Source: a virus. Taken from it: DNA of 51,556 bases. Below, in pieces: positions 2,705-47,146 of the stretch; the stretch's first letter is position 1, and each line of letters starts with the position of its first letter. Where the stretch lies: the IMG/VR virus record IMGVR_UViG_3300044681_000823, positions 1 through 51,556 of that record; one strand, given 5' to 3'. Below the pieces are notes generated by a model. The model saw nothing but the letters and a program-made list of their open reading frames with translations, did not search any database and was not told where the DNA came from. The position numbers and the translations under genes are program-made.

Positions 2705-2706
2705 TC

Positions 2707-3291
2707 ATGAATTTTATTACTAGCTGTGCAATTAATCCTGAATATAATAAAAGAATTTTTGTAGTAGATAACTTTTACACTGATCCTTATGCAGTAAGAG
2801 AGTATGCACTTCAGCAAGATTTTAAAGCAGACTTAAGATATTACAAAGGAAAAAGGACTGAGCAGCAGTTTATAGTTCCAGGAACTAAAAAGATATTTGA
2901 AAAAATTATAGGGCAAGATATTACTGTCTGGGATGAGTATGGAATGAATGGAGTCTTTCAGACATGTAATGCAGAGGATCCCCTTGTCTATCACACAGAC
3001 TTTCAAGAGTGGGCTGGAATGGTTTATTTGACTCCTGATGCTCCATTTGAGTCTGGCACTTCAATGTTTGCTCACAAAGGCACTAGAGCGAGGCATATCA
3101 CAGACTTAGGTATGGATATTGCATTTGATGGTGGGTTTTATGATGGTACTAAATTTGAATTGGTAGATTCTATAGGAAATGTTTTTAATAGATTAGTTAT
3201 TTTTAATGGTAAATGTATACACTCTGCCTCTAAGTATTTTGGTAAAGAGTTGTCAGATTCTAGACTATTCCACATGTTCTTTTTTGATTGA
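2707..3291 (+). CDS. 2OG-Fe(II) oxygenase-like protein, copy 2 (DUF6445-like)
   Basis: A 194-residue paralogue of the preceding gene. Shared landmarks are VVDNFYTDPYAVREYAL at the N-terminus, YHTDF (HxD), VYLTPDAPFESGT, NRLVIF, IHSASKYFG and SRLFHMFFF. ATG 2707 lies two bases after the upstream stop. Its TGA overlaps the next ATG (TGATG). Divergence between the copies is spread over the whole length, which looks like an old duplication with specialised substrates rather than a recent copy. Both metal ligands and the distal Arg are kept, so both are expected to be active. Confidence 0.7.
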   Translation: MNFITSCAINPEYNKRIFVVDNFYTDPYAVREYALQQDFKADLRYYKGKRTEQQFIVPGTKKIFEKIIGQDITVWDEYGMNGVFQTCNAEDPLVYHTDFQEWAGMVYLTPDAPFESGTSMFAHKGTRARHITDLGMDIAFDGGFYDGTKFELVDSIGNVFNRLVIFNGKCIHSASKYFGKELSDSRLFHMFFFD

Positions 3292-6685: not shown

Positions 6686-6690
6686 CTATT

Positions 6691-6939
6691 ATGAATTTTA
6701 CAGTTTACAGTAAATGGGGGTGCCCATACTGCGATAAAATTAAAGTGATACTTGAGGATTTGAGTATAAAAAAAGGATATACTTCAGTTTTTTATGAATT
6801 AAATACAGACTTTACCAGGGAAGAATTTTATTCAGAGTTTGGTGAAGGATCTACTTTCCCTCAAGTTATTATGGATACAAAACACCTTGGGGGGTGTTCA
6901 GATACAGTTAAGTATCTGATTGAAAATTCCATTCTTTAA
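6691..6939 (+). CDS. grx: Glutaredoxin
   Basis: An 82-residue single-domain glutaredoxin with the dithiol site CPYC at 11-14, the cis-Pro motif TFPQV near 56-60 and the GGCSD glutathione-binding segment near 67-71. It is a cytoplasmic thiol-disulfide reductant. In T4-like phages such proteins serve as electron donors to ribonucleotide reductase, which is not in this window. It lies five bases after the glycan cassette and its TAA overlaps an ATG. Confidence 0.9.
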   Translation: MNFTVYSKWGCPYCDKIKVILEDLSIKKGYTSVFYELNTDFTREEFYSEFGEGSTFPQVIMDTKHLGGCSDTVKYLIENSIL

Positions 6940-7127
6940 TGACTGCTATAAATAATACAGATTCTTCTAGTATGAATAGAGGAATTGAGTTGATATTAAG
7001 AAAGAAAAATCTTAAGAAAAAAACATTTTTATTTGTGTTTGAAAAAATAATATTTCTTTTTAAAAGAGAAATATTTATTTCCCTTAATTTTTCCTTTGAT
7101 ATAAGGAAATCTCAAAGTAAGGAGTAA
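6939..7127 (+). CDS. Doubtful 62-aa ORF in a structured leader
   Basis: The frame begins at the ATG overlapping the glutaredoxin stop and runs 62 codons. The protein is Lys- and Phe-rich with no recognisable family. The same stretch contains a perfect late promoter TATAAATA at 6947-6954 and two hairpins (7046-7079 and 7090-7109), and ends on the Shine-Dalgarno sequence of the next gene. I think the region is mainly promoter plus 5' leader for the gene at 7132. A real small basic protein is possible but less likely. Confidence 0.25.
   Translation: MTAINNTDSSSMNRGIELILRKKNLKKKTFLFVFEKIIFLFKREIFISLNFSFDIRKSQSKE
6947..6954 (+). promoter_or_regulatory. Late promoter TATAAATA
   Basis: An exact match to the T4 late promoter core. 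The first ATG with a good ribosome-binding site downstream is at 7132 (AAGGAGT at 7118-7124), giving an unusually long leader of about 170 bases. It may drive 7132 and the genes following it. Confidence 0.6.
7046..7109 (+). other. Two consecutive leader hairpins
   Basis: The first hairpin pairs 7046-7057 with 7067-7079 (AATAATATTTCT against AGAAATATTTATT, one bulged base). The second pairs TTTCCTT 7090-7096 with AAGGAAA 7103-7109 around a 6-base loop. Both precede the Shine-Dalgarno sequence of the gene at 7132 and could influence mRNA stability or translation. Both are A/T-rich, so stability is modest. Confidence 0.45.
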
Positions 7128-7131
7128 AAAA

Positions 7132-7350
7132 ATGATAGCAATTTCTTTAGTTTTTTCTGTAATGTTTTTTATCATTTCACTTATTGTTGGTGGAGTAGTT
7201 GGGTGGATTTATAGAGAATATGTTTGGTCATCCCAAGCTATGAGAATGCATCCAGAAATGTATGATGAGAATGGAAATGTTATCCCTGATGAAATCATTG
7301 CTTTTAGATTTGAAGAAAACACAGAGGAAGAACCTGATTTAGAAGATTAA
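7132..7350 (+). CDS. Small single-pass membrane protein
   Basis: A 72-residue protein with a hydrophobic segment at residues 2-26 (AISLVFSVMFFIISLIVGG), a Trp/Tyr/Arg interface (WIYREYVW) and an acidic C-terminal tail ending EENTEEEPDLED. Topology is probably N-out, with the acidic tail in the cytoplasm. A strong AAGGAGT Shine-Dalgarno sequence lies 7 bases upstream. I recognise no functional family. Its position before ThyX and PhoH suggests a conserved cyanophage accessory gene. Confidence 0.75.
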   Translation: MIAISLVFSVMFFIISLIVGGVVGWIYREYVWSSQAMRMHPEMYDENGNVIPDEIIAFRFEENTEEEPDLED

Positions 7351-7368
7351 TTAAATGGAGAGTAAATT

Positions 7369-7806
7369 ATGAAATTACCACCAAATCAATTGGTGTCTGA
7401 GGTTGTTCAAAGAGTTTCTAATGCTAAAACTAGAGACGAAAAAATTGCAATCCTCAGACACTATGATACCCCTGCTTTGAGAGCTATTCTTATTTGGAAT
7501 TTTGATGATTCTGTGCAATCAGATCTTCCAGAAGGAGAAGTCCCTTATACCCCAAATGATGCTCCAATTGGAACAGAGCATTCTAGAATTGAACATGAGT
7601 GGCAAAAGTTTAATCACTTTGTTAAAGGTGTCTCAAATGTCACCAAGTTTAAAAAGGAAATGATGTTTGTTCAGCTTCTTGAAGCTTTACATTCTTCTGA
7701 TGCTGAACTTCTTTGTCTTATGAAGGACAAACAAATTCACAAAAGATACAAATTAACAAAAGCAGTAGTTCAAGATGCTTTTCCTGAAATTGTATTTTCA
7801 TCTTGA
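7369..7806 (+). CDS. Conserved T4-like cyanophage protein (DUF6433-like)
   Basis: A 145-residue soluble, mostly helical protein, starting KLPPNQLVSEVVQRVSNAKT and containing KIAILRHYDTPALRAILIWNFD and HRYKLTKAVV-like segments near the end. The N-terminal pattern resembles a family I know as DUF6433 from marine T4-like phages; the function is unknown. It is preceded by GGAGAGTAA and follows the membrane protein by 18 bases, consistent with one operon. Confidence 0.65.
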   Translation: MKLPPNQLVSEVVQRVSNAKTRDEKIAILRHYDTPALRAILIWNFDDSVQSDLPEGEVPYTPNDAPIGTEHSRIEHEWQKFNHFVKGVSNVTKFKKEMMFVQLLEALHSSDAELLCLMKDKQIHKRYKLTKAVVQDAFPEIVFSS

Positions 7807-7814
7807 TTTGAGTA

Positions 7815-7982
7815 ATGGATAAAGATAGAATACAATTAATTGTTAGAAACTTAGAGTTATTAGTAGATTCTTTAAAAAAAGAAATTAATTCAAATTCTGA
7901 AGTAAATCATTCTACAAATATTTCAGAATATTTAGGTTCATTAAATGATTATGATGAGGTTTTTGTAGAGGAGGATTATTGA
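7815..7982 (+). CDS. Small acidic hypothetical protein (55 aa)
   Basis: ATG 7815 to TGA 7980-7982 encodes 55 residues with a predicted amphipathic helix (RIQLIVRNLELLVDSLKKEI) followed by an acidic tail ending EVFVEEDY. It lies 8 bases after the preceding gene and 4 bases before thyX, and its last codons form the GAGGAGG Shine-Dalgarno sequence used by thyX. This translational packing supports it as a true gene. The coiled-coil-like helix suggests oligomerisation or a protein partner; no family is recognised. Confidence 0.6.
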   Translation: MDKDRIQLIVRNLELLVDSLKKEINSNSEVNHSTNISEYLGSLNDYDEVFVEEDY

Positions 7983-7986
7983 CAAC

Positions 7987-8739
7987 ATGAAGCCTATTAA
8001 AGCAAAAGATCTAATTGAACTTGATAAAAATCTGCAAGTTGTCAAACTTCAATGCTATCCAGTCCCAGAACAAGTAGTATACCAAGCTGGGAAGAATGAT
8101 TATTCAGAAATTCCAATTCATGATCAACAAATTCCTTCCCCTACAAAATGTGGGGAGTGGATTGTAGAACGTCTACTTAGCAATGATAAAGGTCACTGGG
8201 GTCCATTAGAACACCCAGGAATCACTTTTTCAGTGTCTGGGTATGTTCATAATGTTGCAATGCAAGCAAGGACTCATAGAGTGGGTATAAGCTTTGATGT
8301 TCAATCCCAAAGGTATACTGGAAAGAGAGTAATTAAAGTTGCTAATGGTGAATTAAAACCTGAGGAAGTTTTCTATGTTAGACCTCCTGGATTTTATACC
8401 AATCGTCATGGCAAAAAGTATGATTGGACTCTGGCAGATTACAATGATGAATTGGACTTCATTTATGAGGGATGCAAGCGTTATGCCTACAAGTATGAAA
8501 AGGGAATGTGTGAAGAGCACATTAGAGACTATCTTGCACAAGCAATTCGTCAGAACTTTGTAGTCTCATTTAACCTCAGATCTGTGCTTCACTTCATGGA
8601 TCTAAGAGCAAAGATGGACGCTCAACTGGAAATTCAAGCTTTATGTGAACAATTTGCTCCTCATCTTAAGTCTTGGTCTCCAAATGTTTGGAATTATTAT
8701 GAAGAAAAGCGTCTACATAGAGCAAAGCTATCTCCATAA
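7987..8739 (+). CDS. thyX: Flavin-dependent thymidylate synthase ThyX
   Basis: A 250-residue protein with the ThyX signature in its phage variant, ARTHRVGISFDVQSQRYTG, near residues 93-111, where the Arg/His/Ser residues bind FAD and dUMP. HWGPLEHPG and LRSVLHFMDLR, two further conserved segments, are present. It methylates dUMP to dTMP using methylenetetrahydrofolate and reduced flavin, supplying thymidine for phage DNA synthesis. It starts at ATG 7987, with GAGGAGG upstream inside the preceding small ORF. Confidence 0.93.
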   Translation: MKPIKAKDLIELDKNLQVVKLQCYPVPEQVVYQAGKNDYSEIPIHDQQIPSPTKCGEWIVERLLSNDKGHWGPLEHPGITFSVSGYVHNVAMQARTHRVGISFDVQSQRYTGKRVIKVANGELKPEEVFYVRPPGFYTNRHGKKYDWTLADYNDELDFIYEGCKRYAYKYEKGMCEEHIRDYLAQAIRQNFVVSFNLRSVLHFMDLRAKMDAQLEIQALCEQFAPHLKSWSPNVWNYYEEKRLHRAKLSP

Positions 8740-8741
8740 AA

Positions 8742-8900
8742 ATGAAAACTTGGTGCATCAAAGACAATCTAACTGGTCACATCTTTAAAGTTCTCTTTAC
8801 TAAAAAAGAGTTTGATCAATTTATAGAAGATAATCCAGACATGGAAGAGTGTATTAATTGCATAGAGTGTGATGATGCACCTTCCATTTGTATAGAATAA
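8742..8900 (+). CDS. Small cysteine-rich protein (52 aa)
   Basis: ATG 8742 lies two bases after the thyX stop and the frame ends at TAA 8898-8900. The protein starts MKTWCIKDNLTGHIFKVLFT and ends with a CINCIEC cluster, so it has five cysteines in 52 residues. That spacing (CxxCxxC) could bind a metal or be redox active, but there is no recognised zinc-finger fold. The N-terminal half looks like a small beta domain. It is acidic and soluble. No family is recognised. Confidence 0.6.
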   Translation: MKTWCIKDNLTGHIFKVLFTKKEFDQFIEDNPDMEECINCIECDDAPSICIE

Positions 8901-8924
8901 ATATTTTTGTAACAACTATAAAAT

Positions 8925-9167
8925 ATGGCAATATATCCAATCATTCATAAAGATACTGGGGAAAAAAGAGTTATTGAAAAAAGTGTTCATGAGATAACTC
9001 AATGGTATAAAGACAATCCTGAATGGAAAAGAGATTGGTCTGAAGGATGTGCAAGTCCAGGAGAGACTGGTGATTGGAGAAATAAACTAATCAGCAGAAA
9101 TCCAGGATGGAATGATGTGCTTGCTAAAGCAAGCAAAGCTCCAGGTTCCCGTGTAAAGAAACTCTAA
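8925..9167 (+). CDS. Small conserved phage protein, distantly FmdB-like
   Basis: An 80-residue protein that starts IYPIIHKDTGEKRVIEKSVHE and ends NPGWNDVLAKASKAPGSRVK. The order 'short beta hairpin, TGE, charged helix, NP, DVLxKxxKxxPGS' resembles phage members of the FmdB-type family, but the zinc-binding cysteines of that family are absent. Its TAA overlaps the phoH ATG (TAATG), so they are probably translationally coupled. Function is unknown. Confidence 0.6.
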   Translation: MAIYPIIHKDTGEKRVIEKSVHEITQWYKDNPEWKRDWSEGCASPGETGDWRNKLISRNPGWNDVLAKASKAPGSRVKKL

Positions 9168-9925
9168 TGGCAAGAAAAAGAAGAAGCAATGATGCAAATC
9201 CAATTGGCATTGGATTGACTACTAAACAAATGAAAAGAAGAAAGCCAATAAATACAGATCTTCTTTTAAATATTACTCCAGCAACAGAAAATCAAGCAAA
9301 ACTTTTTGATGCTTATGATTCTGACAAACACTTGTTTGTTTATGGATGTGCAGGAACAGGAAAAACATTCTGTGCTTTGTATCTTGCTCTTAAGGATGTT
9401 CTAAGTGAAATTACACCATATCAAAAAATTGTTATTGTCAGATCACTTGTAGCAACAAGAGAAATAGGATTTCTTCCTGGAACTCATGATGACAAATCTT
9501 CACTATATCAAATACCATATAAAAATATGGTAAAGTATATGTTTGAAATGCCTACTGATGCTGAATTTGAAATGCTCTATGGTAATTTGAAATCTCAAGA
9601 AACAGTTACATTTTGGAGCACATCTTTTATTAGAGGAACAACCTTAGATAATTCAATTATTATAGTTGATGAATGCCAAAACTTGAACTTTCATGAACTT
9701 GATAGTATAATTACAAGAGTTGGAGACAACTCAAGAATCATGTTCTGTGGTGATGCCACACAATCAGACTTAACCAAAACTAATGAAAGAAGTGGTATTT
9801 TAGATTTTATGAAGATTATACAAAGGATGCCTGAATTTGAAACCATAGAATTTGGTGTAGATGATATTGTAAGATCTGGACTTGTAAAATCTTATATTGT
9901 CAATAAAATTGCAGCAGGATTTTAA
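9167..9925 (+). CDS. phoH: PhoH-like P-loop ATPase
   Basis: A 252-residue protein with Walker A GCAGTGKT near residues 60-67, Walker B IIIVDE near 163-168 (VDECQN is the PhoH form) and a sensor-like FCGDATQSDL. The basic N-terminus (ARKRRSND) may contact nucleic acid. PhoH proteins are phosphate-starvation ATPases related to RNA helicases and common in marine T4-like phages; the phage role is not settled. It overlaps its upstream neighbour and is followed three bases later by an oxygenase gene. Confidence 0.92.
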   Translation: MARKRRSNDANPIGIGLTTKQMKRRKPINTDLLLNITPATENQAKLFDAYDSDKHLFVYGCAGTGKTFCALYLALKDVLSEITPYQKIVIVRSLVATREIGFLPGTHDDKSSLYQIPYKNMVKYMFEMPTDAEFEMLYGNLKSQETVTFWSTSFIRGTTLDNSIIIVDECQNLNFHELDSIITRVGDNSRIMFCGDATQSDLTKTNERSGILDFMKIIQRMPEFETIEFGVDDIVRSGLVKSYIVNKIAAGF

Positions 9926-9927
9926 AT

Positions 9928-10647
9928 ATGCATAATACTGCTTATAATCTTGGTAAAACTTTAAATTATAATTATTTAAATTCAAAACCATTTCCAAACA
10001 TAGTTTTGGATGATTTTATTAATCCTGAGATTGCAAATCAATGTTTTGTTGAATTGAAAAATTATGATGGATGGGGATTTGAATCTCCTTCCAATGAATA
10101 TATGAAATCTCATCAAGTAAATAAATTTTATAGTCCATGGAGTCTAGAGAATTTAGAATATTTGCAACAATCTGCTCCAACTGTTTATAATACTCTTCAG
10201 TATTTTAATTCAGAACCATTTCTAAAATTTCTTAGCGAGTTAACTGGTATTGAAAACTTGATTGCAGACCCATCATTTTCTGGTGGAGGATGTCATAAAA
10301 TTAATACTGGAGGAAAATTGTCCTTACATGTAGATTATAATTTAAATGATAAAAATCAATTTAGAGTTTTAAATCTTCTACTTTATTTAAATCCTGATTG
10401 GAAAGAAGAATGGGAAGGTGCGTTGGAATTGTGGGACAATCAATCAAAAAAATGTGCCCATAAAATTCTTCCCCTGTTTAATAGGGCTGCGATATTTACA
10501 TTATCTGATAACTCTATACATGGGCATCCAGTACCTTTAAATTGTCCTGAAGATATTCAAAGATATTCTTTAGCACTTTATTATTTTATTGAAAAACCAA
10601 ATCAAGAATATTATGAAAGAAGAGCAGTTGTCTGGCATGATTTTTAA
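9928..10647 (+). CDS. 2OG-Fe(II) oxygenase, prolyl-4-hydroxylase-like
   Basis: A 239-residue protein. The iron ligands are seen as HVD (H134, D136) in LSLHVDYN and His in HGHP near 198-200, with a distal Arg (QRYSLALYYF) for 2-oxoglutarate. GALELWD between them is the usual double-stranded beta-helix strand of the prolyl-4-hydroxylase/2OG-FeII_Oxy_3 type. It would hydroxylate a peptidyl prolyl or other side chain using O2 and 2-oxoglutarate. Its substrate is unknown. The genome also encodes long collagen-like Gly-Pro-Gln repeats, which makes a virion-protein substrate an attractive but untested idea. Confidence 0.85.
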   Translation: MHNTAYNLGKTLNYNYLNSKPFPNIVLDDFINPEIANQCFVELKNYDGWGFESPSNEYMKSHQVNKFYSPWSLENLEYLQQSAPTVYNTLQYFNSEPFLKFLSELTGIENLIADPSFSGGGCHKINTGGKLSLHVDYNLNDKNQFRVLNLLLYLNPDWKEEWEGALELWDNQSKKCAHKILPLFNRAAIFTLSDNSIHGHPVPLNCPEDIQRYSLALYYFIEKPNQEYYERRAVVWHDF

Positions 10648-11320
10648 TCATTGTAATGTAAGTCTCCCTTCTCTTGAAAGGGAGACTATTGATGGAGTAA
10701 GATATTACAAAATTCCACATGGAGATGAACTAATGAAGTTTGTCTCCATTACTTCCGTAACAAGTCATCACAATAAGCATATTTTTGAACAGTGGAGGCA
10801 AAAGGTTGGGGAAGAGGAAGCAAATAAAATCAACAAGCAAGCTACTTCAAGAGGAACAGAACTTCATAGTATAGTTGAAAATTATCTTCTTAATATTCCA
10901 GAACTTCCAGAATCATCTTTGATTTCAAAACATCTTTTTAAGATAATAAGACCTGAACTAAACAAGATCAATAATATTCATGCACTTGAGAGATCATTGT
11001 ATAGTAAGGTTTTAGGTATTGCTGGAACAGTTGATTGTATTGCAGAATATAATAATGAACTGTCTATTATTGATTTTAAAACTTCCAAGAAAGCAAAACC
11101 CCTAGAGTGGATTGAACACTACTTTGTTCAAGCAGCTGCTTATGCTTGTATGTTCTATGAACTTACAAATATTCCAGTCAAGAAATTAGTTATTATTATG
11201 GCTTGTGAAGATGGTGAGTGTGTGGTTTATGAACAGTATGATAAAGTTAAATACATTAAACTTTTAAAAACTTATATTGAAGACTTTGTGAACTTTAAAC
11301 TAAAAGAATATGGAAAATAA
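10637..11320 (+). CDS. PD-(D/E)XK nuclease (RecB/Cas4-type exonuclease fold)
   Basis: I chose ATG 10637, overlapping the preceding gene by 11 bases; upstream in-frame starts would only add a tail read in the previous gene. The 227-residue protein has the PD-(D/E)XK core: GIAGTVDCIAEYNNELSIIDFKTSKK (D ... D-x-K, where IIDFKTS carries the catalytic Asp and Lys), with an ERSLYS Glu upstream and the QAAAYACMF helix after it. No iron-sulfur cysteines are visible. Placed upstream of gp33-gp59-gp32, it probably acts in phage recombination or DNA processing. Confidence 0.8.
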   Translation: MIFNHCNVSLPSLERETIDGVRYYKIPHGDELMKFVSITSVTSHHNKHIFEQWRQKVGEEEANKINKQATSRGTELHSIVENYLLNIPELPESSLISKHLFKIIRPELNKINNIHALERSLYSKVLGIAGTVDCIAEYNNELSIIDFKTSKKAKPLEWIEHYFVQAAAYACMFYELTNIPVKKLVIIMACEDGECVVYEQYDKVKYIKLLKTYIEDFVNFKLKEYGK

Positions 11321-11567
11321 ATTAGAATCTTTGCTGGAATCTAAATTTTTATGTCAAACAAAATTTTCTAAAATTATAGAAGATATTGTAAAAAAAAATA
11401 ACGATATGAACTATATTGATGCCATAGTTCATTATTGTGAGGAAAATAATTTAGAGGTTGAATCAGTATCAAAATTAATAAGCAAACCACTTAAAGAAAA
11501 AATTAAATGTGATGCTATAAATCTCAATTTCTTAAAGCGTACTTCTAGAGCTAAATTGTTAATATGA
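11310..11567 (+). CDS. gp33: gp33-like late transcription coactivator
   Basis: An 85-residue, charged helical protein beginning ENKLESLLESKFLCQTKFSKI, with AIVHYCEENNLEVESV and LKEKIKCDAINLNFLKR. This pattern and the position directly before gp59 match gp33 of marine T4-like phages. In T4, gp33 bridges RNA polymerase and the gp45 clamp to activate late promoters; the many ATAAATA elements in the window fit this. It overlaps both neighbours (ATGA at the 3' end). Confidence 0.75.
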   Translation: MENKLESLLESKFLCQTKFSKIIEDIVKKNNDMNYIDAIVHYCEENNLEVESVSKLISKPLKEKIKCDAINLNFLKRTSRAKLLI

Positions 11568-12172
11568 CACCCTTTGATGTATATAAAACTTATGTGGCTC
11601 TAAAGAATCACTTTAGTAAACCAAGTTATGATTACATCAAATATGCTGGAAAAACCAGAGCATCAATAGAATCTTTTAATAAAAGGAAAGATAAGTATTG
11701 GTATGAAAAACTCTCTAGACAAAAATCTGATGATGAAATAAAAGATTTTTTTATTGCAAATTTTATTGAAGTTGATGATCCTTCTAGACTTTGGATAGGG
11801 GAACTTAGTAGAACTGGAGAAAGTGTTTACAAAGATTGGATAAAAAGACAACAAAGTTTATCTTATATTTTTAAAGAGCAATCAGAACAATTATTTGTTG
11901 AATTTGACCTAAATGATTTGTTTGATTGCTCAAAAACTCATCCACCAATACTCAAAAAATATTTAAGTAAAAAAATTAATTCAGAAACTTTGGTAATTTT
12001 TAATAAAATCTTTTTATTCAGTGATCAATTTGACAATAAACTTTTAGATCCTGTGTGGGAATCTGTATCTTTGAAAATTAAGAAGTATTCTCCATTTCTA
12101 AATATTGATATTAAGTCTTACAAAAAAGTGTTAACTTCTATAATTGGGAGAAAATCTGATGGCATTCTTTGA
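11564..12172 (+). CDS. gp59: gp59-like loader of the replicative helicase
   Basis: The 202-residue protein starts TPFDVYKTYVALKNHFSKPSYDYIKY and has KRKDKYWYEKLSR and LWIGELS, in the same order as T4 gp59 (YKLYLMIKQHM..YDVIKYN..KRRDKYFFQKLSEK..WIGDIS). Length is close to T4 gp59. It should bind forked DNA and gp32 and load the gp41 helicase. Its neighbours gp33 and gp32 agree. The ATG overlaps the gp33 stop. Confidence 0.9.
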   Translation: MTPFDVYKTYVALKNHFSKPSYDYIKYAGKTRASIESFNKRKDKYWYEKLSRQKSDDEIKDFFIANFIEVDDPSRLWIGELSRTGESVYKDWIKRQQSLSYIFKEQSEQLFVEFDLNDLFDCSKTHPPILKKYLSKKINSETLVIFNKIFLFSDQFDNKLLDPVWESVSLKIKKYSPFLNIDIKSYKKVLTSIIGRKSDGIL

Positions 12173-37670: not shown

Positions 37671-40600
37671 ATGGCAAAATATTTAAGTAGAAGAGTTGTA
37701 AATACTCCTTTTTCAAGATTAACCTCAGACAGATATGATTTTCTGGGGTTAAATCAAGCTGAGCCTAGTTTGGGGGATCCTGCCAATAGTCCAACTATTC
37801 CAACTGGAGCACAATATGTTCTTATTGGAATTGGGGGAGATAAACTTAGATATTGGACTCCAGTTCCCCCTGGTCTATTAGAATTAGGAATCACAGTTTT
37901 TGATGAAGGTAATCTGGTAGGTGTAGCTGGATCTATTACTAAGTTAAACTTTGTAGGAAAAAGAGTAGTAGCAACAGGGCAAGTATCTCCAGGATTGGGT
38001 ATTGCTACTATTACAGTTTTAGATATCCCAGTAGAAGAACCTACAGATTCTAATATAAGGTATATTGGATTTACTAGCGAAAGATCTGGAGGGGATCTTG
38101 AAAGATTTGAGATCTCTCCTACTACATTGGTCTTTAATCCAAACTCTAAATATCTTGGTATAGGAAATACTCAACCAGATTATCCAGTAGATATTAATAC
38201 CAACTCAATTAGGGTTACTGGAGATTTAGTTAATAGAGAAGGACTATCTGGTGGAATATATCAAGTATTAACATCTCTTGGACCTGGATTGGGATTTACT
38301 TGGGCTTATGCCTCTGGACCTCTAGGACCACAAGGATTTCAAGGATTTCAGGGGTTACAAGGTCCTCAAGGATTCCAAGGACCTCAAGGATTCCAGGGTC
38401 CACAAGGTCCTCAAGGTCCAATAGGACCACAAGGATTCCAGGGTCCACAAGGATTCCAGGGTCCACAGGGTTCAATAGGGCCACAAGGATTTCAGGGTCC
38501 TCAAGGTGCTCAAGGTTTTCAAGGACCTCAAGGCACTCAAGGATTCCAAGGATTCCAAGGTCTCCAAGGACCACAAGGTGCTAAGGGGGACCAAGGATTA
38601 ATAGGACCACAAGGATCCCAAGGGTTAATAGGTCCACAAGGTGCTCAAGGAGTTCCTGGAGAAGGAGGTGCAACTGGATCAACAGGACCTCAAGGTGCTC
38701 AGGGTGACATAGGACCTCAAGGATCTCAAGGATTGCAAGGACCTCAAGGATCTCAAGGATTTCAAGGACCTCAAGGTATTATTGGACCTCAAGGACCAAA
38801 GGGAGATGATGGAACATCTGTTACTATTGTAGGATCAGTTCCTTCAGTAACTACATCAGCACCACATACTTCATTGACTGCTGATGATTCTATTTTCTCT
38901 TGGTATCCACCATCCACAGGAGATGGTGTAATTGCTCAAGACACAGGAAATCTTTGGGTTTATGATGGATCAAATTGGAATGATGTTGGAACTATTAAAG
39001 GTCCAATAGGACCACAAGGTTCTCAAGGATTGCAAGGTCCTCAAGGTGCTCAAGGAGTTAGAGGTCCTCAAGGTGCTCAAGGTGCTCAAGGAATTAGAGG
39101 TCCTCAAGGATCACAAGGAAATATTGGACCTCAAGGTGCTCAGGGATTTCAGGGTAGTCCTGGTATAGGAGGAACAACTGGATCTATAGGACCTCAAGGA
39201 TCACAAGGAAATATTGGACCTCAAGGTGCTCAAGGTGCTCAAGGAGTTAGAGGTCCTCAAGGATCTCAAGGTGATCAAGGAGTCAGAGGACCCCAAGGAA
39301 CTGCAGGATCTCAAGGACTATCTGGACCACAAGGTGCTCAAGGAAATATAGGACCTCAAGGTTTTCAAGGACCTCAAGGAAATGTAGGTCCACAAGGAAG
39401 TACAGGTTCTCAAGGTTCTATTGGTCCACAAGGACAAATAGGACCACAAGGATTTCAAGGTCCACAAGGAACACCAGGAAATCCTGGTGTTCCAGGTGCT
39501 CAAGGATTTCAAGGAAGAGTAGGACCTCAAGGATTTCAAGGTCCTCAAGGATTTCAAGGTTTCCAAGGTCCTCAAGGATCTCAAGGATTAACTGGTCCAC
39601 AAGGACCTCAGGGGGTTCAAGGTCCTCAAGGACAAATAGGTCCTCAAGGACAAATAGGTCCTCAAGGGAAAATAGGACCTCAGGGAGTAAGAGGACCTCA
39701 AGGTTTTCAAGGTCTAATAGGTCCTCAAGGTATCATTGGTCCACAAGGTATTATTGGTCCCCAAGGACAAATAGGTCCTCAAGGTATCATTGGTCCACAA
39801 GGTATCATTGGTCCACAAGGACAAATAGGTCCTCAAGGTATCATTGGTCCACAAGGACCTCAAGGACCTTCAGGACCTCAGGGAGCTCAAGGTGCCAGAG
39901 GACCTCAAGGTTTTCAGGGAAATATTGGACCACAAGGATCAAGAGGTCCACAAGGTTCTCAAGGTCCTCAAGGACAAATAGGTCCTCAAGGACAAATAGG
40001 TCCTCAAGGACAAATAGGTCCTCAAGGTATCATTGGACCACAAGGAAGAATAGGACCTCAAGGACCTCAGGGACAAAGAGGACCTCAAGGTTTCCAAGGT
40101 CCACAAGGTCCAGCAGGTGGTCCTGGTATTGTAGGACCACAAGGTTCTGAGGGTCCTAGAGGACCACAAGGTACTCAAGGATTCCAGGGTCCACAAGGAT
40201 TCCAGGGTCCACAAGGACCTAGAGGTCCACAAGGATTAATTGGACCCCAAGGAAGTCAAGGTCTTATTGGACCTCAGGGTGTTAGAGGTCCTCAAGGTAT
40301 TATTGGACCACAAGGACCACAAGGTCCTTTTGGACCTCAAGGTGCTCAAGGTGCTGCAGGAACATCTGTTACTATTGTAGGATCAGTTCCTTCAGTAACC
40401 ACATCATCTCCACATACTACATTGACTGCAGATGATTCTTTATTTTCATGGTATCCTCCCTCTACTGGTGATGGAGTAATCGCTCAAGACACAGGAGATC
40501 TTTGGGTCTATAATGGTACAGATTGGGATAATGTTGGTAATATTAGAGGCCCAATAGGTCCACAGGGACCAAGAGGTCCTCAGGGATCTCAAGGTTTACT

Positions 40601-42563
40601 AGGACCTCAGGGGAGAATTGGTCCTCAGGGGGGAATTGGATCATTAGGTCCACAAGGACCATTGGGACCACAAGGTCCACAAGGAAGAATTGGACCTCAA
40701 GGTATTATTGGTCCACAAGGTATTATTGGTCCACAAGGACCTAGAGGTCCACAAGGTATTATTGGTCCACAAGGACCTAGAGGTCCACAAGGATCAATAG
40801 GACCTCAGGGACCTTTAGGTCCTCAGGGATCAGGTGGATCTATAGGACCTCAGGGAAATATTGGTCCACAAGGACCAAGAGGTCCACAAGGTTTCCAAGG
40901 TCCACAAGGAGGAGGACCTCAAGGTCCAAGAGGACCCCAAGGGCAAAGAGGACCTCAAGGTGCTCAAGGTCCTGTTGGAGATCCAAGTACAGTTCCAGGT
41001 CCAAGAGGTCCCCAAGGTGTTCAAGGACCTCAAGGAACTGCAGGTGCTCAAGGTGCTAGAGGATCTCAAGGATCTCAAGGTGCCGCAGGTGCCCAGGGTG
41101 ATAGAGGTGCTGATGGAGGTGTTCCCTACATTTATTCTGATAATGTTAGTCCTGCTCCACTTAGTTCTCAAATACGCCTCAACTCTCCAGATTTTTCACT
41201 TGTAAATACAATTTATATCAGCCATACTCTTAGTGGTGGTGGATCTGCTTTAAATTGGATTAGTACATTTGATGATTCTACAAATAGTTCTCAAAGAGGT
41301 TACTTAATTTTATCTTCTTCCCCATCAAACACTGAAATTTATTCAGTAATTGGCAATAATCAAACATTTGCTAGTTACTCTTCTATTAGTGTCCAATATT
41401 TGGGTGGAACTGGATCAATATATGTTGCTCCTGGAACAGTGCTTTATGTGCAGTTTGTTAGAACTGGAAATAGAGGTCCTCAAGGTGCCATAGGGCCTCA
41501 AGGAACTTCATTAAGAGGTCCACAAGGTCCACAGGGACCAAGAGGTCCACAAGGACCACAAGGTCCAATAGGTCCACAAGGTCCAAGAGGTCCTCAAGGT
41601 TCAATAGGTCCTCAAGGTCCTGGATTGACTGCTGGATTAGCTAATCAAGTAATCTTTAAAAATACCAGCAATGTTGCAACTGGAGATAATAATTTAAGAT
41701 TTACTACTACTGGACTGAGTATTAACAAATCTGCATCAACAGCATCATATGCTCTTGATGTTGGTGGAGCTGCTGGACAAAATGGTGATATTAAATTAAC
41801 TGGAAAACTAATAGTATCTGGTGTAGGTGAATTTGAAGTTGGTAATGGGATAAATGTTGGATGGTTTGGAGATTCAACAAACATGGCAGTAAGATTTAGG
41901 CAGAATTCTGCTTCTAAATTTTACATCCAAAGATATACTGGATCAGGGCATGTAGATATAGCAACTTTTGACAACAGTGCAATTAATTTTTACAGAAACC
42001 TTATAGTTTCTGGATCAGTATCAGCAACTTCATTATCAATACCTTCATTAACAGTAACTGGTGGCATAAGTGCAATAAATGGAAAATTCCAAGTATCTGA
42101 TGATTCTGGAGGAGCAGTTATTGAAATATCAAGATCTACTGGGTCATATATTGACTTTAAGAGGGGAACTGAGGATTATAATGCTAGGATCAATAACTTT
42201 ACAAGTGGAGCAATTGGAATAGATGGAAACTTATCAGTAACAGGTGATATTACTGCATTTGCTTCTGATGAAAGACTTAAAACAAATATTGAAATTATTA
42301 ATAATGCTCTAGAAAAGGTTTGTTCACTTAGAGGATTTACATACAACTTCAATGAAATTGGCGAAAGTCTTGGATTTAAAATGGATGTAAGACATTCTGG
42401 TGTTTCTGCCCAGGAAGTTCAATCTGTCCTTCCAGAGGCGATTGCTTCTACTCCAGCAGACAATAATTATCTAACTGTAAAATATGAAAAACTTGTTCCA
42501 TTATTAATTGAAGCAATTAAAGAACTTTCTTCCAAGGTAGATAAATTACAATCAGGAGGATAG
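37671..42563 (+). CDS. Collagen-like tail fibre with C-terminal S74 chaperone (1,630 aa)
   Basis: Residues 1-215 are an N-terminal attachment region. From about 216 to 1151 the protein is Gly-X-Y repeats, mostly GPQGxQ, broken by two near-identical 63-residue globular inserts ([16 protein letters not shown] ...). A globular domain follows (about 1152-1267), then a second short collagen stretch (about 1269-1318), shaft repeats and a peptidase S74 domain: [12 protein letters not shown] with Ser1532/Lys1537, [32 protein letters not shown]. Collagen trimers make a long rigid rod. In the repeats Pro is in the X position and Gln in Y. Confidence 0.9.
38316..41124 (+). repeat. Gly-X-Y collagen-like repeat tract with duplicated inserts
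   Basis: Hundreds of 9-base units such as GGACCTCAA and GGTCCTCAAGG variants. Inserts at 38811-39000 and 40359-40548 are nearly identical in DNA and protein, so a block of about 1.55 kb containing insert plus repeats was duplicated. A second short tract is at 41475-41622. Confidence 0.95.
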
Positions 42564-42566
42564 ACA

Positions 42567-43400
42567 ATGCCTACTCCAACAGGAACTATATCATTTTCTA
42601 ATATAGAGTCTGAATTTGGTAGAAATGGATCTAAATCTCTAGGAGCATATAGAGTATCACAATCTGCAGGTCTTTACTCAAATTTACCTCTTGACTTGGG
42701 AATTCCTCAAAGTGGTTCAATTAGTTTTAGTGATTTAAGAGGAAAGAGATTAAACATTGTTGTAGATATTTCTGGTGCCAGAGAAGATCGTGTGAATATA
42801 AGATCAAAATATGATGCTAATTCTGGTGTCACTGTTATAGGAGGGTTTACATCTAGACCTGCAGATCCAAGTCAAAAAAGAATATGGGCCAGTGTAAATA
42901 AGACAATAGGATCTTCTAGTGCATCAAGAAATCATGTGGCATTGAGAACTGGTACTTGGGGAAATGGTGCAATATTGAATGTTCTCATAGGATCAGGTGC
43001 AAGAATTATTGGTGCTGGTGGTAAAGGAGGAGACTTTACTGCAAGTACATCAGGTCAAAGTGGAACTGCAGTTTATGCAGAACCATGTTTACATTTTAGA
43101 GATTATAAAGGGAATGTATACTTATATCAATGTAAAGGATATGATCCTGGTCCACCAGCAGGGGATTGGACTTCTGGATGGTATCCAGGTAATTATGTTC
43201 TTATTGGAGATGGTAAAAGATCATTCTATGGTTATGAGGCACGTAGAAATTGGAGTGCAACATCTACATCATTTAATGCTGGTGCAGGATCTCCTGGATC
43301 CAGTGCCATAGGTATTGATTATCAAACCACTTTGACAAATAATGGATACATTCAGTGCGGATTTGGTGGTGGTGGTGCTGGTGGATTTAGATCTAGGTAA
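42567..43400 (+). CDS. Receptor-binding-type virion protein ending at a glycine-rich domain (277 aa)
   Basis: Residues 1-60 (TGTISFSNIESEFGRNGSKS, PQSGSISFSDLRGKRL) are an N-terminal module common in marine phage adhesins. A beta domain follows, and the end is glycine rich (CGFGGGGAGGFRSR) before TAA 43398-43400. The next ORF starts 12 bases later in the same reading frame and is nearly all glycine. Together they look like one adhesin with a polyglycine tip domain, split by a stop codon. SD AGGAGGA precedes ATG 42567. Confidence 0.7.
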   Translation: MPTPTGTISFSNIESEFGRNGSKSLGAYRVSQSAGLYSNLPLDLGIPQSGSISFSDLRGKRLNIVVDISGAREDRVNIRSKYDANSGVTVIGGFTSRPADPSQKRIWASVNKTIGSSSASRNHVALRTGTWGNGAILNVLIGSGARIIGAGGKGGDFTASTSGQSGTAVYAEPCLHFRDYKGNVYLYQCKGYDPGPPAGDWTSGWYPGNYVLIGDGKRSFYGYEARRNWSATSTSFNAGAGSPGSSAIGIDYQTTLTNNGYIQCGFGGGGAGGFRSR

Positions 43401-43412
43401 GGAGGTAAACTA

Positions 43413-43823
43413 ATGGGAGGAAAAGGAGGAGGCGGCGGAGGCGGCGGTGGAGGTGGAGGAACCTCCACTGGAGGTGGAGGAGGTGGAGGTGCTGGACTTC
43501 CTGGAGGAGCAGGAGGAGGAACTACTGGAACTGGTGTAGCAGGACGAGGGACAAGTGGATCTGCAGGATCTGCAGGATCAGAAACAGTTAGAGGAACTGG
43601 TGGTGCTGGAGGAACAGAAGCAGGTCGTGGTGGAGATGGTGGAGATCCATCACAAAATGCTCAGAAAGGACAAGATACTGCTAATCAAGGTGGAGGAAAT
43701 CCTGGTGCAAATGGAGGTGCTATACTTGTTACTCCAGCTGCTGGTTTTCTCCCAAATTTTTTGACTTTATATAATAATGGAACAATCATAGGAAGCATAG
43801 ATTATTTTACTACACCTGAATAA
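43413..43823 (+). CDS. Polyglycine-rich adhesin tip (136 aa)
   Basis: Residues 2-90 are mostly Gly with Thr, Ser, Ala and some Arg/Glu; the last 40 (GGAILVTPAAGFLPNFLTLY, NNGTIIGSIDYFTTPE) are a beta cap. This resembles the polyglycine-II adhesins at T-even fibre tips (gp38 type), with no sequence match claimed. A perfect GGAGGT Shine-Dalgarno lies 6 bases before ATG 43413, so it is probably translated on its own even though the upstream gene is in the same frame. The DNA is a sharp G-rich spike and contains an inverted repeat (43453-43468). Confidence 0.7.
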   Translation: MGGKGGGGGGGGGGGGTSTGGGGGGGAGLPGGAGGGTTGTGVAGRGTSGSAGSAGSETVRGTGGAGGTEAGRGGDGGDPSQNAQKGQDTANQGGGNPGANGGAILVTPAAGFLPNFLTLYNNGTIIGSIDYFTTPE

Positions 43824-43826
43824 ATA
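43819..43826 (+). promoter_or_regulatory. Late promoter AATAAATA
   Basis: AATAAATA overlaps the TAA of the adhesin gene, 21 bases before ATG 43848. It would drive the modification-enzyme island. Confidence 0.55.
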
Positions 43827-43847: not shown

Positions 43848-44189
43848 ATGAAATTAATATTTAAAATAGTAGAGTATCTTCCAGACACTGAACAAATTGT
43901 AATAAAATGTTGTAGGCAAAATGCTCCTAAAGCAATAGATGAGTATCCTTCTATTGCCTTAGATGTTATGCACATTGATTTTAGTAGTTATGAAAATTTT
44001 AAACATTCAATAATTATGAATTTGATGCATGTTGTCAGAAAGCAAATAGAAGATGAGCCAATTCTCCAGGAAAATCAAATAGTAGAGGAAATAGATTCTG
44101 AAGATTTGGATGACTATGTTAATAAAATTGTTGGTGTTGATTTGGAAGAAATCTTAAATGGAAGTCACATATTTACATCAATGTTATAA
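43848..44189 (+). CDS. Hypothetical acidic protein (113 aa)
   Basis: A 113-residue protein: a beta-type start (KLIFKIVEYLPDTEQIVIKC), a helix (NFKHSIIMNLMHVVRKQIED) and an acidic region (EEIDSEDLDDYVNKIVGVDL). Two adjacent Cys at 20-21. No family is recognised. It opens the island between fibre genes and its stop touches the next ATG. Small acidic proteins at this site in marine phages often serve as fibre assembly factors, which is a guess here. Confidence 0.6.
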   Translation: MKLIFKIVEYLPDTEQIVIKCCRQNAPKAIDEYPSIALDVMHIDFSSYENFKHSIIMNLMHVVRKQIEDEPILQENQIVEEIDSEDLDDYVNKIVGVDLEEILNGSHIFTSML

Positions 44190-44681
44190 ATGAGAGATCC
44201 TACTTGTAGAAGATTTCATAGAAATTGTGAAGATTTTACTTTGTGTGTTAATATTGGCGAAAAGGGTTATGTTCTAGCAGAGCATCCAAATGAAAGATAT
44301 ACAATTTTTTACTATGGATTGTATGGTTCTGGAAAATTTGGAAAAATTTTTGAATCTGATTACATTTTAATAGAATCAAAAAAGTTAGTAGATGTTAGAG
44401 ATTATGTAAATTCTGAAGTAATATTCCAATCTCATGAGGACTTTTGTCTAATTGGATTCAATACAATGGATAAAAATATTCATTGGAATGCTAAAATGTT
44501 GAATGAAAATATAAAAATAATAAAAGAAGATAAAAAATCTATATTAATTTGTTTAGATGGTACTATGATAGTGAATGATAAAAAATTTAAAAGATATAAT
44601 TATGCATCTTTAGTTTCTGGAAAAGAATATAGTTTAGATCTCAACCAAAATTCAGTAGCAGTTATTTTTACTCAAATTTAA
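44190..44681 (+). CDS. Hypothetical protein, possible cupin-like beta sandwich (163 aa)
   Basis: A 163-residue strand-rich protein. The C-terminal half (KSILICLDGTMIVNDKKFKR, YNYASLVSGKEYSLDLNQNS, VAVIFTQI) has the rhythm of a small double-stranded beta-helix (cupin), but the usual metal-binding His cluster is not evident. The start has Cys-containing RDPTCRRFHRNCEDFTLCVN. It begins directly at the previous stop and is followed one base later by a hydroxylase-like gene. Confidence 0.6.
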   Translation: MRDPTCRRFHRNCEDFTLCVNIGEKGYVLAEHPNERYTIFYYGLYGSGKFGKIFESDYILIESKKLVDVRDYVNSEVIFQSHEDFCLIGFNTMDKNIHWNAKMLNENIKIIKEDKKSILICLDGTMIVNDKKFKRYNYASLVSGKEYSLDLNQNSVAVIFTQI

Positions 44682-44682
44682 A

Positions 44683-45165
44683 ATGATTGAAAAAAATGAA
44701 TTAAATATTCTTTTTGAGTGGGCAAAAAATACTGAATTGCCATTAAGATTTGGTCCTACTGCTGATGGTTATTCTTCAGTTCCAATTAAATTTTGTTGGT
44801 TAAAGAAAAATAGAAAAAATTCTATAATAAGAAAAAGTACAATAAAAGATCAAAAAATAGAAAAAATATTAGAGAATGATGATATATTATTTTCTATGTT
44901 TGTAGTTTTTGATCCAGGAACAGAACTTGGACCTCATAAAGATCCAAATATTTACAAAGAACCATATAAAAGAATTCAAATTCCTATTGAAATACCAGAT
45001 AAAGACAAATGTTATATGATTTGGAATGGCGAAAAGGTATTTTGGGAAGAAGGAGTTCCTCAAATATATGAAGTAATGGACTATATCCATGAGGGATATA
45101 ATTTATCAGATAAACCTATGAAATTTTTGTTTATAGATATAAAGAGAAACAGTATAATTTATTGA
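44683..45165 (+). CDS. Aspartyl/asparaginyl beta-hydroxylase-like 2OG oxygenase
   Basis: A 160-residue protein. LGPHKDPN (HxD near 85-87) provides two iron ligands, YKRIQIPIEIPDKDKCYMIW follows the family, and the second His lies in VMDYIHEGYNLSDKPMKFLF, the counterpart of the 'HeawN-sd-pR' motif of Asp/Asn hydroxylases; here Lys replaces the usual Arg after Pro. A small but apparently complete double-stranded beta-helix. The gene sits between fibre genes and sulfotransferases, which suggests a protein or glycan substrate in the virion. Confidence 0.75.
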   Translation: MIEKNELNILFEWAKNTELPLRFGPTADGYSSVPIKFCWLKKNRKNSIIRKSTIKDQKIEKILENDDILFSMFVVFDPGTELGPHKDPNIYKEPYKRIQIPIEIPDKDKCYMIWNGEKVFWEEGVPQIYEVMDYIHEGYNLSDKPMKFLFIDIKRNSIIY

Positions 45166-45170
45166 TTACC

Positions 45171-46103
45171 ATGAACATAACTATTGTTCCATCAATGAGG
45201 TGGATAAAAACAGATGAGGTATCATTAAATATTCCAAAGTGGGATTTTGATGATAATCATATAGAGAGTATAGAATGGAAAGATGGAAAAGGGTCTGTTC
45301 AATTTAAAAAAGGATCTATAATTGAGTCGTCTTTCAATGATGTTTCAATTTTGCAACCATATCTTGATGCACTAGAACCTTATGCTGAGGAAAATTTTCC
45401 AGATGTAGTTTTTGATGAAACTAAACAAACATATGTTTTAAATAACAATAATAGTTCTAATAGTAATGAAGGTCTAAGTAATATTTTAAATTCTCAAGGT
45501 AAGGCATGGATTTATATTCATATTCCTAAAACTGCAGGAATGTTTATTAAATCTAGAATCAAAGAGTGTATAGAAACCTCTAAAATTTTAGATCCCTTTG
45601 TTAATAATAATATTTTTTCCACACCAATTAAAAATGCTCCTAGAATTTCTTTTGTGAAAGAGCATATAGAATTGGCAAATGATGAAAAAGTTAAGTTTAT
45701 TGCTGTTGTCAGAAATCCATATGATAGAGTTTATAGTTTATGGAAATGGTCTAGAATTTATGGCCTTCCAGGGAATCTAGAATTTCCTGAAGTAGAAGAT
45801 AAATTTAATGATTTTGTGACTTCATGGGCAGAGGGAAATTATAATCACTATTACTTTATGCAAGGACAAACATTTTTTCTTAAAGGATATGATGATAGTT
45901 TGAAAATAATGAAATTTGAAGATCTGAATACTGAAGTTAAATTATTTTTCCAAGAAAATGGAGTCAGTTGGTCAGATAAAAAAGTTAATGATGTTCCTGG
46001 CAAACAATACACTAATGTTTATACAGAGGAATCCATAAAAGCAGTTCAGAAAAAATGTATAGATGAATTTGAGATGTTTGGTTACTCTACTGATTTAAAT
46101 TAG
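45171..46103 (+). CDS. Carbohydrate-type sulfotransferase with an extra N-terminal phage domain
   Basis: ATG 45171 gives 310 residues. The sulfotransferase part starts at about 110: IYIHIPKTAGMFIKS (5'-phosphosulfate loop, about 115-128) and VVRNPYDRVYSLWKW (3'-phosphate site, about 179-192) are the PAPS-binding motifs of the Sulfotransfer_2 type that acts on sugars. Residues 1-75 (WIKTDEVSLNIPKWDFDDNH, IESIEWKDGKGSVQFKKG) form a separate small beta domain seen in phage fibre regions, followed by an Asn/Ser linker. It would move sulfate from PAPS to a glycan or protein acceptor. Confidence 0.85.
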   Translation: MNITIVPSMRWIKTDEVSLNIPKWDFDDNHIESIEWKDGKGSVQFKKGSIIESSFNDVSILQPYLDALEPYAEENFPDVVFDETKQTYVLNNNNSSNSNEGLSNILNSQGKAWIYIHIPKTAGMFIKSRIKECIETSKILDPFVNNNIFSTPIKNAPRISFVKEHIELANDEKVKFIAVVRNPYDRVYSLWKWSRIYGLPGNLEFPEVEDKFNDFVTSWAEGNYNHYYFMQGQTFFLKGYDDSLKIMKFEDLNTEVKLFFQENGVSWSDKKVNDVPGKQYTNVYTEESIKAVQKKCIDEFEMFGYSTDLN

Positions 46104-46104
46104 T

Positions 46105-46788
46105 GTGTTTGTAATTAATAGAGAGTGGTTGTATATTCATATACCAAAAACATCCGGAACTAATTTAAAGGAATTATTTTTAAATTCTGATAATCACATT
46201 TTTGAAAATATCTACATTAAAAATAAATCCTATGATTATTGGTGGAATAATTTCACTTTGAATAGAGATGTTGCTCTTCTCAAAAAATCCTATCCAATAC
46301 TATCTAAGCATATTCCATTATCCATTTATGAAAAAGTTTTTAATTGCAGTAAACTAAAAATTTTTTCAATAGTAAGAAATCCTTATGCTTGGGCAGTTTC
46401 ATCATATCATGAAATTTTAAAAGTATTTTCATCTGATTTTTTCCCTGAATTTTATAGAACATTATCATTTAAGGAGGTATTTCATTACAAATATTTTATA
46501 GATCTTCAACCATCCTTTCCAATCAATCTATTTGTAAATCAATGTGACTTTTTGACAAATTCTGATGGTCAAATTAAATGTGATAGAATCTATAAAATGG
46601 AAGATGATTTGCAACAACTTGGGGATGATTTCAATTTGAAAAATATATTGACTACAAAAACTAATGTTGGCAATTATGTGAAAGACTATTCAAAGTATTA
46701 TGATGATGAAATGATAGAAAAAGTTAAAGAAATATACAAAAAAGATTTTGAAACTTTCAATTACAGTAAAGATCCATTTTGGATTTGA
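46105..46788 (+). CDS. Second sulfotransferase
   Basis: A 227-residue protein with WLYIHIPKTSGTNLKELF (5'-PSB, about 8-25) and IFSIVRNPYAWAVSSYHEIL (3'-PB, about 86-105), the two PAPS motifs. The start is GTG 46105, as no ATG precedes the first motif. It has only the catalytic domain, without the N-terminal domain of its neighbour, and is too divergent to be a recent copy. The pair probably sulfate different positions. A perfect late promoter follows the gene. Confidence 0.85.
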   Translation: MFVINREWLYIHIPKTSGTNLKELFLNSDNHIFENIYIKNKSYDYWWNNFTLNRDVALLKKSYPILSKHIPLSIYEKVFNCSKLKIFSIVRNPYAWAVSSYHEILKVFSSDFFPEFYRTLSFKEVFHYKYFIDLQPSFPINLFVNQCDFLTNSDGQIKCDRIYKMEDDLQQLGDDFNLKNILTTKTNVGNYVKDYSKYYDDEMIEKVKEIYKKDFETFNYSKDPFWI

Positions 46789-46795
46789 TGGTTAG

Positions 46796-46803
46796 TATAA
46801 ATA
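46796..46803 (+). promoter_or_regulatory. Late promoter TATAAATA
   Basis: An exact T4 late promoter core 16 bases before the ATG at 46820, outside any gene. It is the strongest late promoter of the window and restarts virion gene transcription after the modification island. Confidence 0.7.
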
Positions 46804-46819
46804 ATTATAAACTTGAACA

Positions 46820-47146
46820 ATGGCAGTACCTTCAGTAAATTTAACTATTGATAAAGGAGTCACCTTTCTTACATCATTGAAGTTAAAGCAGGATGGTGCT
46901 CCAATTAACTTAGGTGGATATACTTGCACCTCAAAAATGAGAAAACATTATGGGGCTTCTACATCATATCCATTAACTATTAACATAATTTCACCATCTG
47001 AAGGAACAATTACTATTGGTATGGCAAGCACAGTAACCTCAACTATTCCAATTGGAAGATATGTTTATGATGTTTTGATTAGTTTTTCTGGATCTACAAC
47101 TAAAGTTGTAGAAGGAACTATTACAGTAAAAGGAACTTCATCCTAA
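46820..47146 (+). CDS. Small Ig-like virion protein (108 aa), baseplate-upper-protein-like
   Basis: A 108-residue all-beta protein: TIDKGVTFLTSLKLKQDGAP, LGGYTCTSKMRKHYG, EGTITIGMASTVTSTIPIGR, YVYDVLISFSGSTTKVVEGT. The pattern matches the N-terminal Ig-like domain of phage BppU-type baseplate proteins, where the domain anchors fibres. Overlaps the next gene by one base (TAATG). Probably a connector between baseplate and fibres. Confidence 0.65.
   Translation: MAVPSVNLTIDKGVTFLTSLKLKQDGAPINLGGYTCTSKMRKHYGASTSYPLTINIISPSEGTITIGMASTVTSTIPIGRYVYDVLISFSGSTTKVVEGTITVKGTSS

Follow-up and report, generated by a model that had tools for sequence, protein, structure and literature searches.

Why should a phage carry a hydroxylase-like gene and two sulfotransferase genes among those of its tail fibre and adhesin? 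The question is raised by the window analysed here, the 51,556 nt of IMG/VR record IMGVR_UViG_3300044681_000823, a 51.6-kb piece of T4-like phage DNA whose source was read as a marine cyanophage. In it, a collagen-like fibre gene is followed by a split Gly-rich adhesin and then by five open reading frames (ORFs), A, B, C, D (sulfotransferase ST1) and E (ST2), which end at 46788 (Table 1). We consider, with a probability of about 0.6 and on the grounds of sequence comparison, that these five genes are the variable end of a cassette that matures the tail fibre and adhesin late in infection. Indeed, the Gly-rich gp38-like tail-tip adhesin is repeatedly accompanied by A, B and C, hydroxylases of the 2-oxoglutarate (2OG) type cluster downstream of such adhesins, and relatives of ST1 and ST2 in other phages are mostly found in adhesin or fibre loci.

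By profile comparison, ST1 joins the N-terminal domain (N-domain) of phage tail-assembly chaperones to a sulfotransferase dependent on 3'-phosphoadenosine 5'-phosphosulfate (PAPS). The sulfotransferase domain (PF00685, 29.5 bits for a cut-off of 22, 6.3e-7) is preceded by about 100 residues. Among the 389 ORFs of the window, a hidden Markov model (HMM) of seven PF16778-type chaperone N-domains matched the ST1 ORF at 1.8e-8, the next best match being 0.16, and an HMM of 24 N-domain proteins devoid of sulfotransferase matched it at 4.5e-17. A tblastn search of the whole phage collection with the first half of L014/L016, where this half is a separate ORF, reached the N-terminus of CRP-361 gp41 (3e-4), the C-terminus of which is PF16778, phage tail assembly chaperone (3.3e-20). 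No match to this C-terminal domain was found in ST1, where the sulfotransferase domain stands in its place; ST1 is thus better described as a fusion than as a member of the chaperone family. A scan of viral contigs gave 237 relatives of the N-domain, which occurs alone, before PF16778-like sequence, before a long coiled coil or, in the window and in loci L034 and L035, before a sulfotransferase. In two further lineages, N-domain and sulfotransferase are adjacent separate ORFs behind fibre genes, followed in L014 by a 186-aa hydroxylase-like ORF and located in L028 beside psbA. Where the N-domain is fused to a coiled coil, a 2OG hydroxylase lies at most four genes downstream in 20 of the 20 non-redundant cases with enough flanking sequence, Synechococcus phage S-SCSM1 being an example. 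In this isolate of Synechococcus WH7803 (L022), the short tail-fibre genes and the gene of SSCSM1_247, the protein with N-domain and coiled coil, lie amid seven annotated 2OG-Fe(II) oxygenases (3117-12139).

The recurrence of this neighbourhood was evaluated by a scan started from the adhesin only, which yielded 80 loci, 64 of them non-redundant, the denominator being the 57 in which three or more ORFs follow. A hydroxylase (2OG or PF05118) lies behind the adhesin in no fewer than 51 of these 57 loci, a homologue of ORF A in 33, of ORF B in 31 and of ORF C in 17. As the counts rely on automatic ORF calling and on HMMs with few seed sequences, those for hydroxylases are minimum values; Pfam identified several unlabelled ORFs as 2OG oxygenases. 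In eight large contigs, 12 of the 27 PF13640 matches lay at most 5 kb downstream of an adhesin, for 1.03 expected (P ~6e-11 under uniform placement).

Sulfotransferases were found in the same surroundings. Both L034 and L035 display the order fibre, intact adhesin (a single ORF of 411-413 aa), ST1 fusion and 2OG hydroxylase. L034 belongs to G001, a 188-kb phage contig carrying psbA, and both this contig and that of L035 harbour another adhesin locus, ordered 2OG, adhesin, 2OG and A, which continues in G001 with a homologue of ST2 (E 8.6e-34, 38% identity) and a DUF3431 protein. The order in L126 is 2OG, adhesin, 2OG, A, B, ST2 and DUF3431. A PF03567 search of the whole of G001 revealed two sulfotransferases only, each one to three genes behind an adhesin, and scans started from the sulfotransferases returned the same loci as those started from the adhesin, plus L201. 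It should be noted that a DUF3431 protein directly follows ST2 in two phages (L126, 5262-5891, and L114) and is a possible glycosyltransferase-like partner of it. The original prediction favoured modification of the virion over metabolism, and this preference is supported, at the level of sequence, by the N-domain of ST1, by the repeated adhesin-hydroxylase-sulfotransferase neighbourhoods and by the clustering of hydroxylases at adhesins.

Several observations weigh against a maturation cassette. A sulfotransferase follows the adhesin in 4 of the 57 loci, and the L123 adhesin has no ST2 next to it, unlike the L126 adhesin to which it is 96% identical; sulfation would therefore be optional. L201, which holds an ST2 relative, is a 4-kb contig on which no adhesin can be seen. 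The function of the N-domain is known only by family association, and the AlphaFold2 (AF2) model of ST1, with a mean predicted local distance difference test (pLDDT) score of 37.5, was too poor to be used. Relatives of ORF C in P-HM1, P-HM2 and MED4-213 lie in the auxiliary-gene region near psbA and not beside fibres, so that this family is not confined to adhesins. Lastly, Arg735 of human AspH contacts 2-oxoglutarate, and M146 (45118-45120) occupies this position in ORF C, as does Met in 9 of 9 homologues; catalysis by ORF C is hence not assured. In view of the adhesin survey, we regard A-B-C plus the hydroxylases as a cassette common at adhesins, to which sulfotransferases are rarely added. 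We abandoned the idea that A, B and C are specially tied to the sulfotransferases, since the survey displays this cassette without them, and likewise that of a tie of ST2 to a particular adhesin, given the near-identity of the L123 and L126 adhesins. The special hydroxylase-sulfotransferase pair initially proposed does not quite hold either, as sulfotransferases occur beside different hydroxylase families.

ORF C nevertheless remains probably active as judged from its residues. It matches PF05118 (36.3 bits for a cut-off of 22.6, 6.1e-9) and phrog_25655 (1.5e-60); the equivalents of the AspH Fe-ligands H679 and H725, H85 (44935-44937) and H136 (45088-45090), are invariant in nine homologues, and R97 (44971-44973) aligns with Arg688. 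The invariant basic residues R50 and K41 might compensate for the loss of Arg735. The NCBIfam equivalog cut-offs place ORF C outside LpxO (36.7 of 500 bits) and OlsC (29.8 of 450). Regarding the possibility of broken active sites, envisaged from the outset, the PAPS motifs of the sulfotransferases are intact and the hydroxylase site is not fully canonical. This replaced position, the chaperone-type domain of ST1 and the split of the adhesin were all absent from the original prediction.

From a functional standpoint, the hydroxylases of such a cassette would add hydroxyls to adhesin or fibre residues, and the N-domain would guide ST1 to the fibre or adhesin as it forms. Both sulfotransferases would then transfer sulfate from host PAPS onto a hydroxyl there, borne by Tyr, by a hydroxylated residue or by a sugar linked to the fibre, ST2 doing similar work without a chaperone domain, and the added charge would tune cell-surface binding, with A and B as putative accessory or assembly factors. 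That chaperone-delivered ST1 sulfates a protein or glycan of the tail-tip adhesin or fibre during assembly is a tentative proposal, somewhat short of an even chance. It would, if true, represent bacteriophage virion sulfation within a hydroxylate-(glycosylate)-sulfate maturation line for cyanophage receptor-binding proteins. The collagen-like fibre is a candidate substrate. So is, as a lead only, a Tyr/Trp-rich insert of about 70 aa (42900-43340) carried by the window, L034 and L035 adhesins, the only ones that adjoin a fused ST1; the region measures 100-102 aa in these three, versus a median of 30 in their relatives. As the three adhesins are each other's closest relatives, the link between insert and ST1 possibly reflects descent. 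Another Tyr-rich insert (VYYYDPENDSYYPAY) occurs in the L009/L118 adhesin, and PF03567 sulfotransferase is absent from its 247-kb contig.

The sulfotransferases could alternatively act on host surface polysaccharide or lipopolysaccharide, leading to receptor masking (superinfection exclusion) or to mimicry of sulfated host polymers, with their location among fibre genes due to co-selection with receptor binding. PF03567 and phrog_3347 are indeed carbohydrate-type sulfotransferase families, DUF3431 follows the ST2 relatives in G001 and L126, and the window also encodes a UDP-galactopyranose mutase and GT2 glycosyltransferases. Yet a host-glycan enzyme would have no need of the tail-assembly-chaperone N-domain of ST1, inspection by eye revealed no obvious signal peptide or membrane anchor in ST1 or ST2, and late timing would leave little time for a surface change. 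We therefore regard this explanation as rather unlikely.

Late timing is itself a deduction from a motif, which makes late expression of the unit probable. AATAAATA, upstream of ORF A, corresponds to the T4-type late-promoter motif, published as NATAAATA for cyanophage S-PM2 (PMC2984593). The 70-nt stretches that precede 42 gene starts contain ATAAATA nine times, for 0.8 expected from random windows, and none of 2000 draws reached nine. Perfect TATAAATA alone constitutes weak evidence, since it occurs four times in the window versus six for the reversed control. The view of A to E as one unit, placed after a late-promoter element and before a perfect TATAAATA, was borne out: the five ORFs overlap or are spaced by at most 1 nt, and no terminator-like site was found between them.

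These genes might also be moron-like hitchhikers, AT-rich accessory genes caught in a tail-fibre recombination hot spot, which act elsewhere (auxiliary metabolism, small-molecule sulfation) or are of little use. The unit is AT-rich (GC 0.25-0.29 versus 0.34 in the window), the presence of sulfotransferases is patchy, homologues of C are found among the P-HM1/2 auxiliary genes, and phage sulfotransferases and 2OG oxygenases have been classed as auxiliary metabolic genes whose role is unclear (PMC10580990, PMC11561400). By contrast, A-B-C and the hydroxylases keep their order across dozens of adhesin loci, and neither the fusion to a chaperone domain nor the concentration of PF13640 at adhesins fits such genes. 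Ratios of non-synonymous to synonymous substitution (dN/dS) of 0.11-0.36 for the unit genes versus their homologues further indicate purifying selection, which, together with the existence of these homologues, argues that A to E are not chance ORFs. Hitchhiking is thus unlikely. PADLOC gave no match with any of the five proteins, hence no sign of a defence system.

It was very unlikely, finally, that the sulfotransferase fold is a structural, non-catalytic assembly chaperone for the adhesin, as the fusion to a chaperone N-domain and the lost PAPS-loop Pro of L028 (IHIFKTAG) might suggest, given that all seven aligned ST1/ST2 proteins retain the PAPS-loop Lys/Thr and the 3'-phosphate Arg/Ser. 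More broadly, W-x-Y-I-H-x-x-K-T-x-G and V-R-N-P-Y-x4-S are invariant in this alignment, L028 being the sole motif exception. ST2 matched PF03567 (28.0 bits for a cut-off of 22, 2.9e-6), PF00685 (26.8, cut-off 22) and phrog_3347 (8.8e-12). The hydroxylase-like protein, the two sulfotransferases and the two proteins of no assigned function initially described were all recovered, the first three with scores above the Pfam cut-offs and both sulfotransferases with IHIPKT(A/S)G and RNPY. PDB sequence searches with ST1 and ST2 gave weak matches (best profile E-values 0.006-0.02) and no clue to the acceptor, and tblastn of both against isolate phages found none. A scan for sulfotransferases in 84,980 bacterial and archaeal genomes, behind a strict pattern prefilter, detected no close relative and hence identified no host donor.

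The adhesin and ORFs A and B complete the putative maturation cassette. The adhesin is interrupted at the start of its poly-Gly region, and in L009 (250 + 128 aa) it is interrupted likewise, again with an ...RSR-stop end; the split is therefore conserved and may yield two subunits. No match to PF05268 (GP38) was obtained with the window adhesin ORF, and an L013 homologue scored 22.3 bits, slightly below the cut-off of 25. A relationship between ORF A and the chaperone N-domain was ruled out by profile comparison (probability 0.3%). ORF B is predicted, with moderate confidence, to be a double-stranded beta-helix (bicupin/HutD-like): its AF2 model has a pLDDT of 67.6 overall and about 84 over residues 90-163, and Foldseek gave HutD 5fcc as best match (E 4.4e-4, template modelling (TM) score 0.45), HutD/cupin matches having TM scores up to 0.53. 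No conserved metal-binding His motif was found in its alignment, and it looks like a non-catalytic cupin; a PDB sequence search gave weak matches only. Small cupin-like proteins, possibly analogous to ORF B, adjoin N-domain chaperone genes in L032 (2948-3541) and L028 (5337-5861). Elsewhere in the window, a glycan module occupies the left end, and a further 2OG-Fe(II) oxygenase lies outside the fibre region.

Table 1. Features of the window, with coordinates, strand and supporting details.
Feature	Position	Strand	Details
Glycan module	1279-6685		left end of window
Two tandem DUF6445 / phrog_1644 proteins	2138-3291		glycan module
GT2 glycosyltransferase	3288-4364		glycan module
UDP-galactopyranose mutase	4357-5442		glycan module
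GT2 glycosyltransferase	5432-6685		glycan module; fused to methyltransferase
2OG-Fe(II) oxygenase	9928-10647		PF13640 6.9e-17
Collagen-like (GPQG repeat) tail fibre, C-terminal Peptidase_S74 intramolecular-chaperone domain	37671-42563	+	Pfam Collagen 6.6e-116, Peptidase_S74 6.1e-15; many tail-fibre PHROGs
Adhesin N-terminal part, Gly-rich, gp38-like	42567-43400	+	phrog_11439 tail fiber 9.9e-7
Adhesin C-terminal poly-Gly part	43413-43823	+	same frame as 42567-43400, beyond in-frame TAA, AAGGAGGT, ATG
AATAAATA, T4-type late-promoter motif (NATAAATA)	43819-43826	+	starts 29 nt upstream of ORF A
ORF A, cassette protein	43848-44189	+	113 aa; acidic C-terminus
ORF B, cassette protein	44190-44681	+	163 aa
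ORF C, Asp/Asn-hydroxylase-like	44683-45165	+	160 aa; PF05118
ORF D (ST1)	45162-46103	+	313 aa from TTG; better ATG start at 45171
ST1 N-domain, homologous to phage tail-assembly chaperone N-terminal domain	45171-45404	+	~78 aa; chaperone-only HMM
ST1 sulfotransferase domain	45492-46103	+	PF00685
ST1 5'-phosphosulfate loop	45513-45539	+	YIHIPKTAG
ST1 3'-phosphate motif	45708-45737	+	VRNPYDRVYS
ORF E (ST2)	46105-46788	+	227 aa; GTG start
ST2 motif	46132-46158	+	YIHIPKTSG
ST2 motif	46372-46401	+	VRNPYAWAVS
TATAAATA	46796-46803	+	after unit, before next fibre-assembly-like gene (46820-47146)

The role of phage sulfotransferases was called unclear in a marine phage survey (PMC10580990), and our literature search, which covered few subscription journals, found no paper joining sulfotransferase, tail fibre and hydroxylase. 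The ST1 chaperone fusion, together with the hydroxylases that dozens of phage contigs carry behind adhesins, offers a specific and testable alternative, namely enzymes for the maturation of the receptor-binding tip. If this is true, the host range of the most abundant marine phages would depend not only on the sequence of the adhesin but also on enzymes that modify it or the fibre, and many genes now called "metabolic" would have to be reassessed.

The locus can be compared with several known systems. Like the gp38-type adhesins of T4-like phages (PF05268), the window adhesin is encoded by a separate gene behind the fibre and possesses a poly-Gly C-terminal region; it differs by falling below the Pfam cut-off, by its two in-frame ORFs and by its place within a hydroxylase-rich cassette. 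ST1 shares with PF16778 tail-assembly chaperones, such as gp41 of Roseobacter phage CRP-361, an N-terminal domain of about 75 aa and a location just downstream of fibre genes, but has a sulfotransferase domain where they have the PF16778 C-terminal part. Both ST1 and ST2 carry the 5'-phosphosulfate and 3'-phosphate motifs of PAPS-dependent sulfotransferases (PF00685/PF03567; phrog_3347 "galactose-3-O-sulfotransferase") and exceed the Pfam cut-offs, although they are very divergent and ST1 is fused to a phage chaperone domain. ORF C resembles the PF05118 family (AspH, LpxO, OlsC) in its two Fe-ligand His equivalents and its Arg688 equivalent, and departs from it in its short length, in the Met at the Arg735 position and in scores far under the LpxO and OlsC cut-offs. 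Cyanophage 2OG-Fe(II) oxygenases (PF13640, PF13759), lastly, share this neighbourhood and likely the same kind of chemistry; they are usually discussed as repair-like, in relation to DNA (PMC2984593), or as auxiliary metabolic genes (PMC11561400), whereas here they are linked to adhesins.

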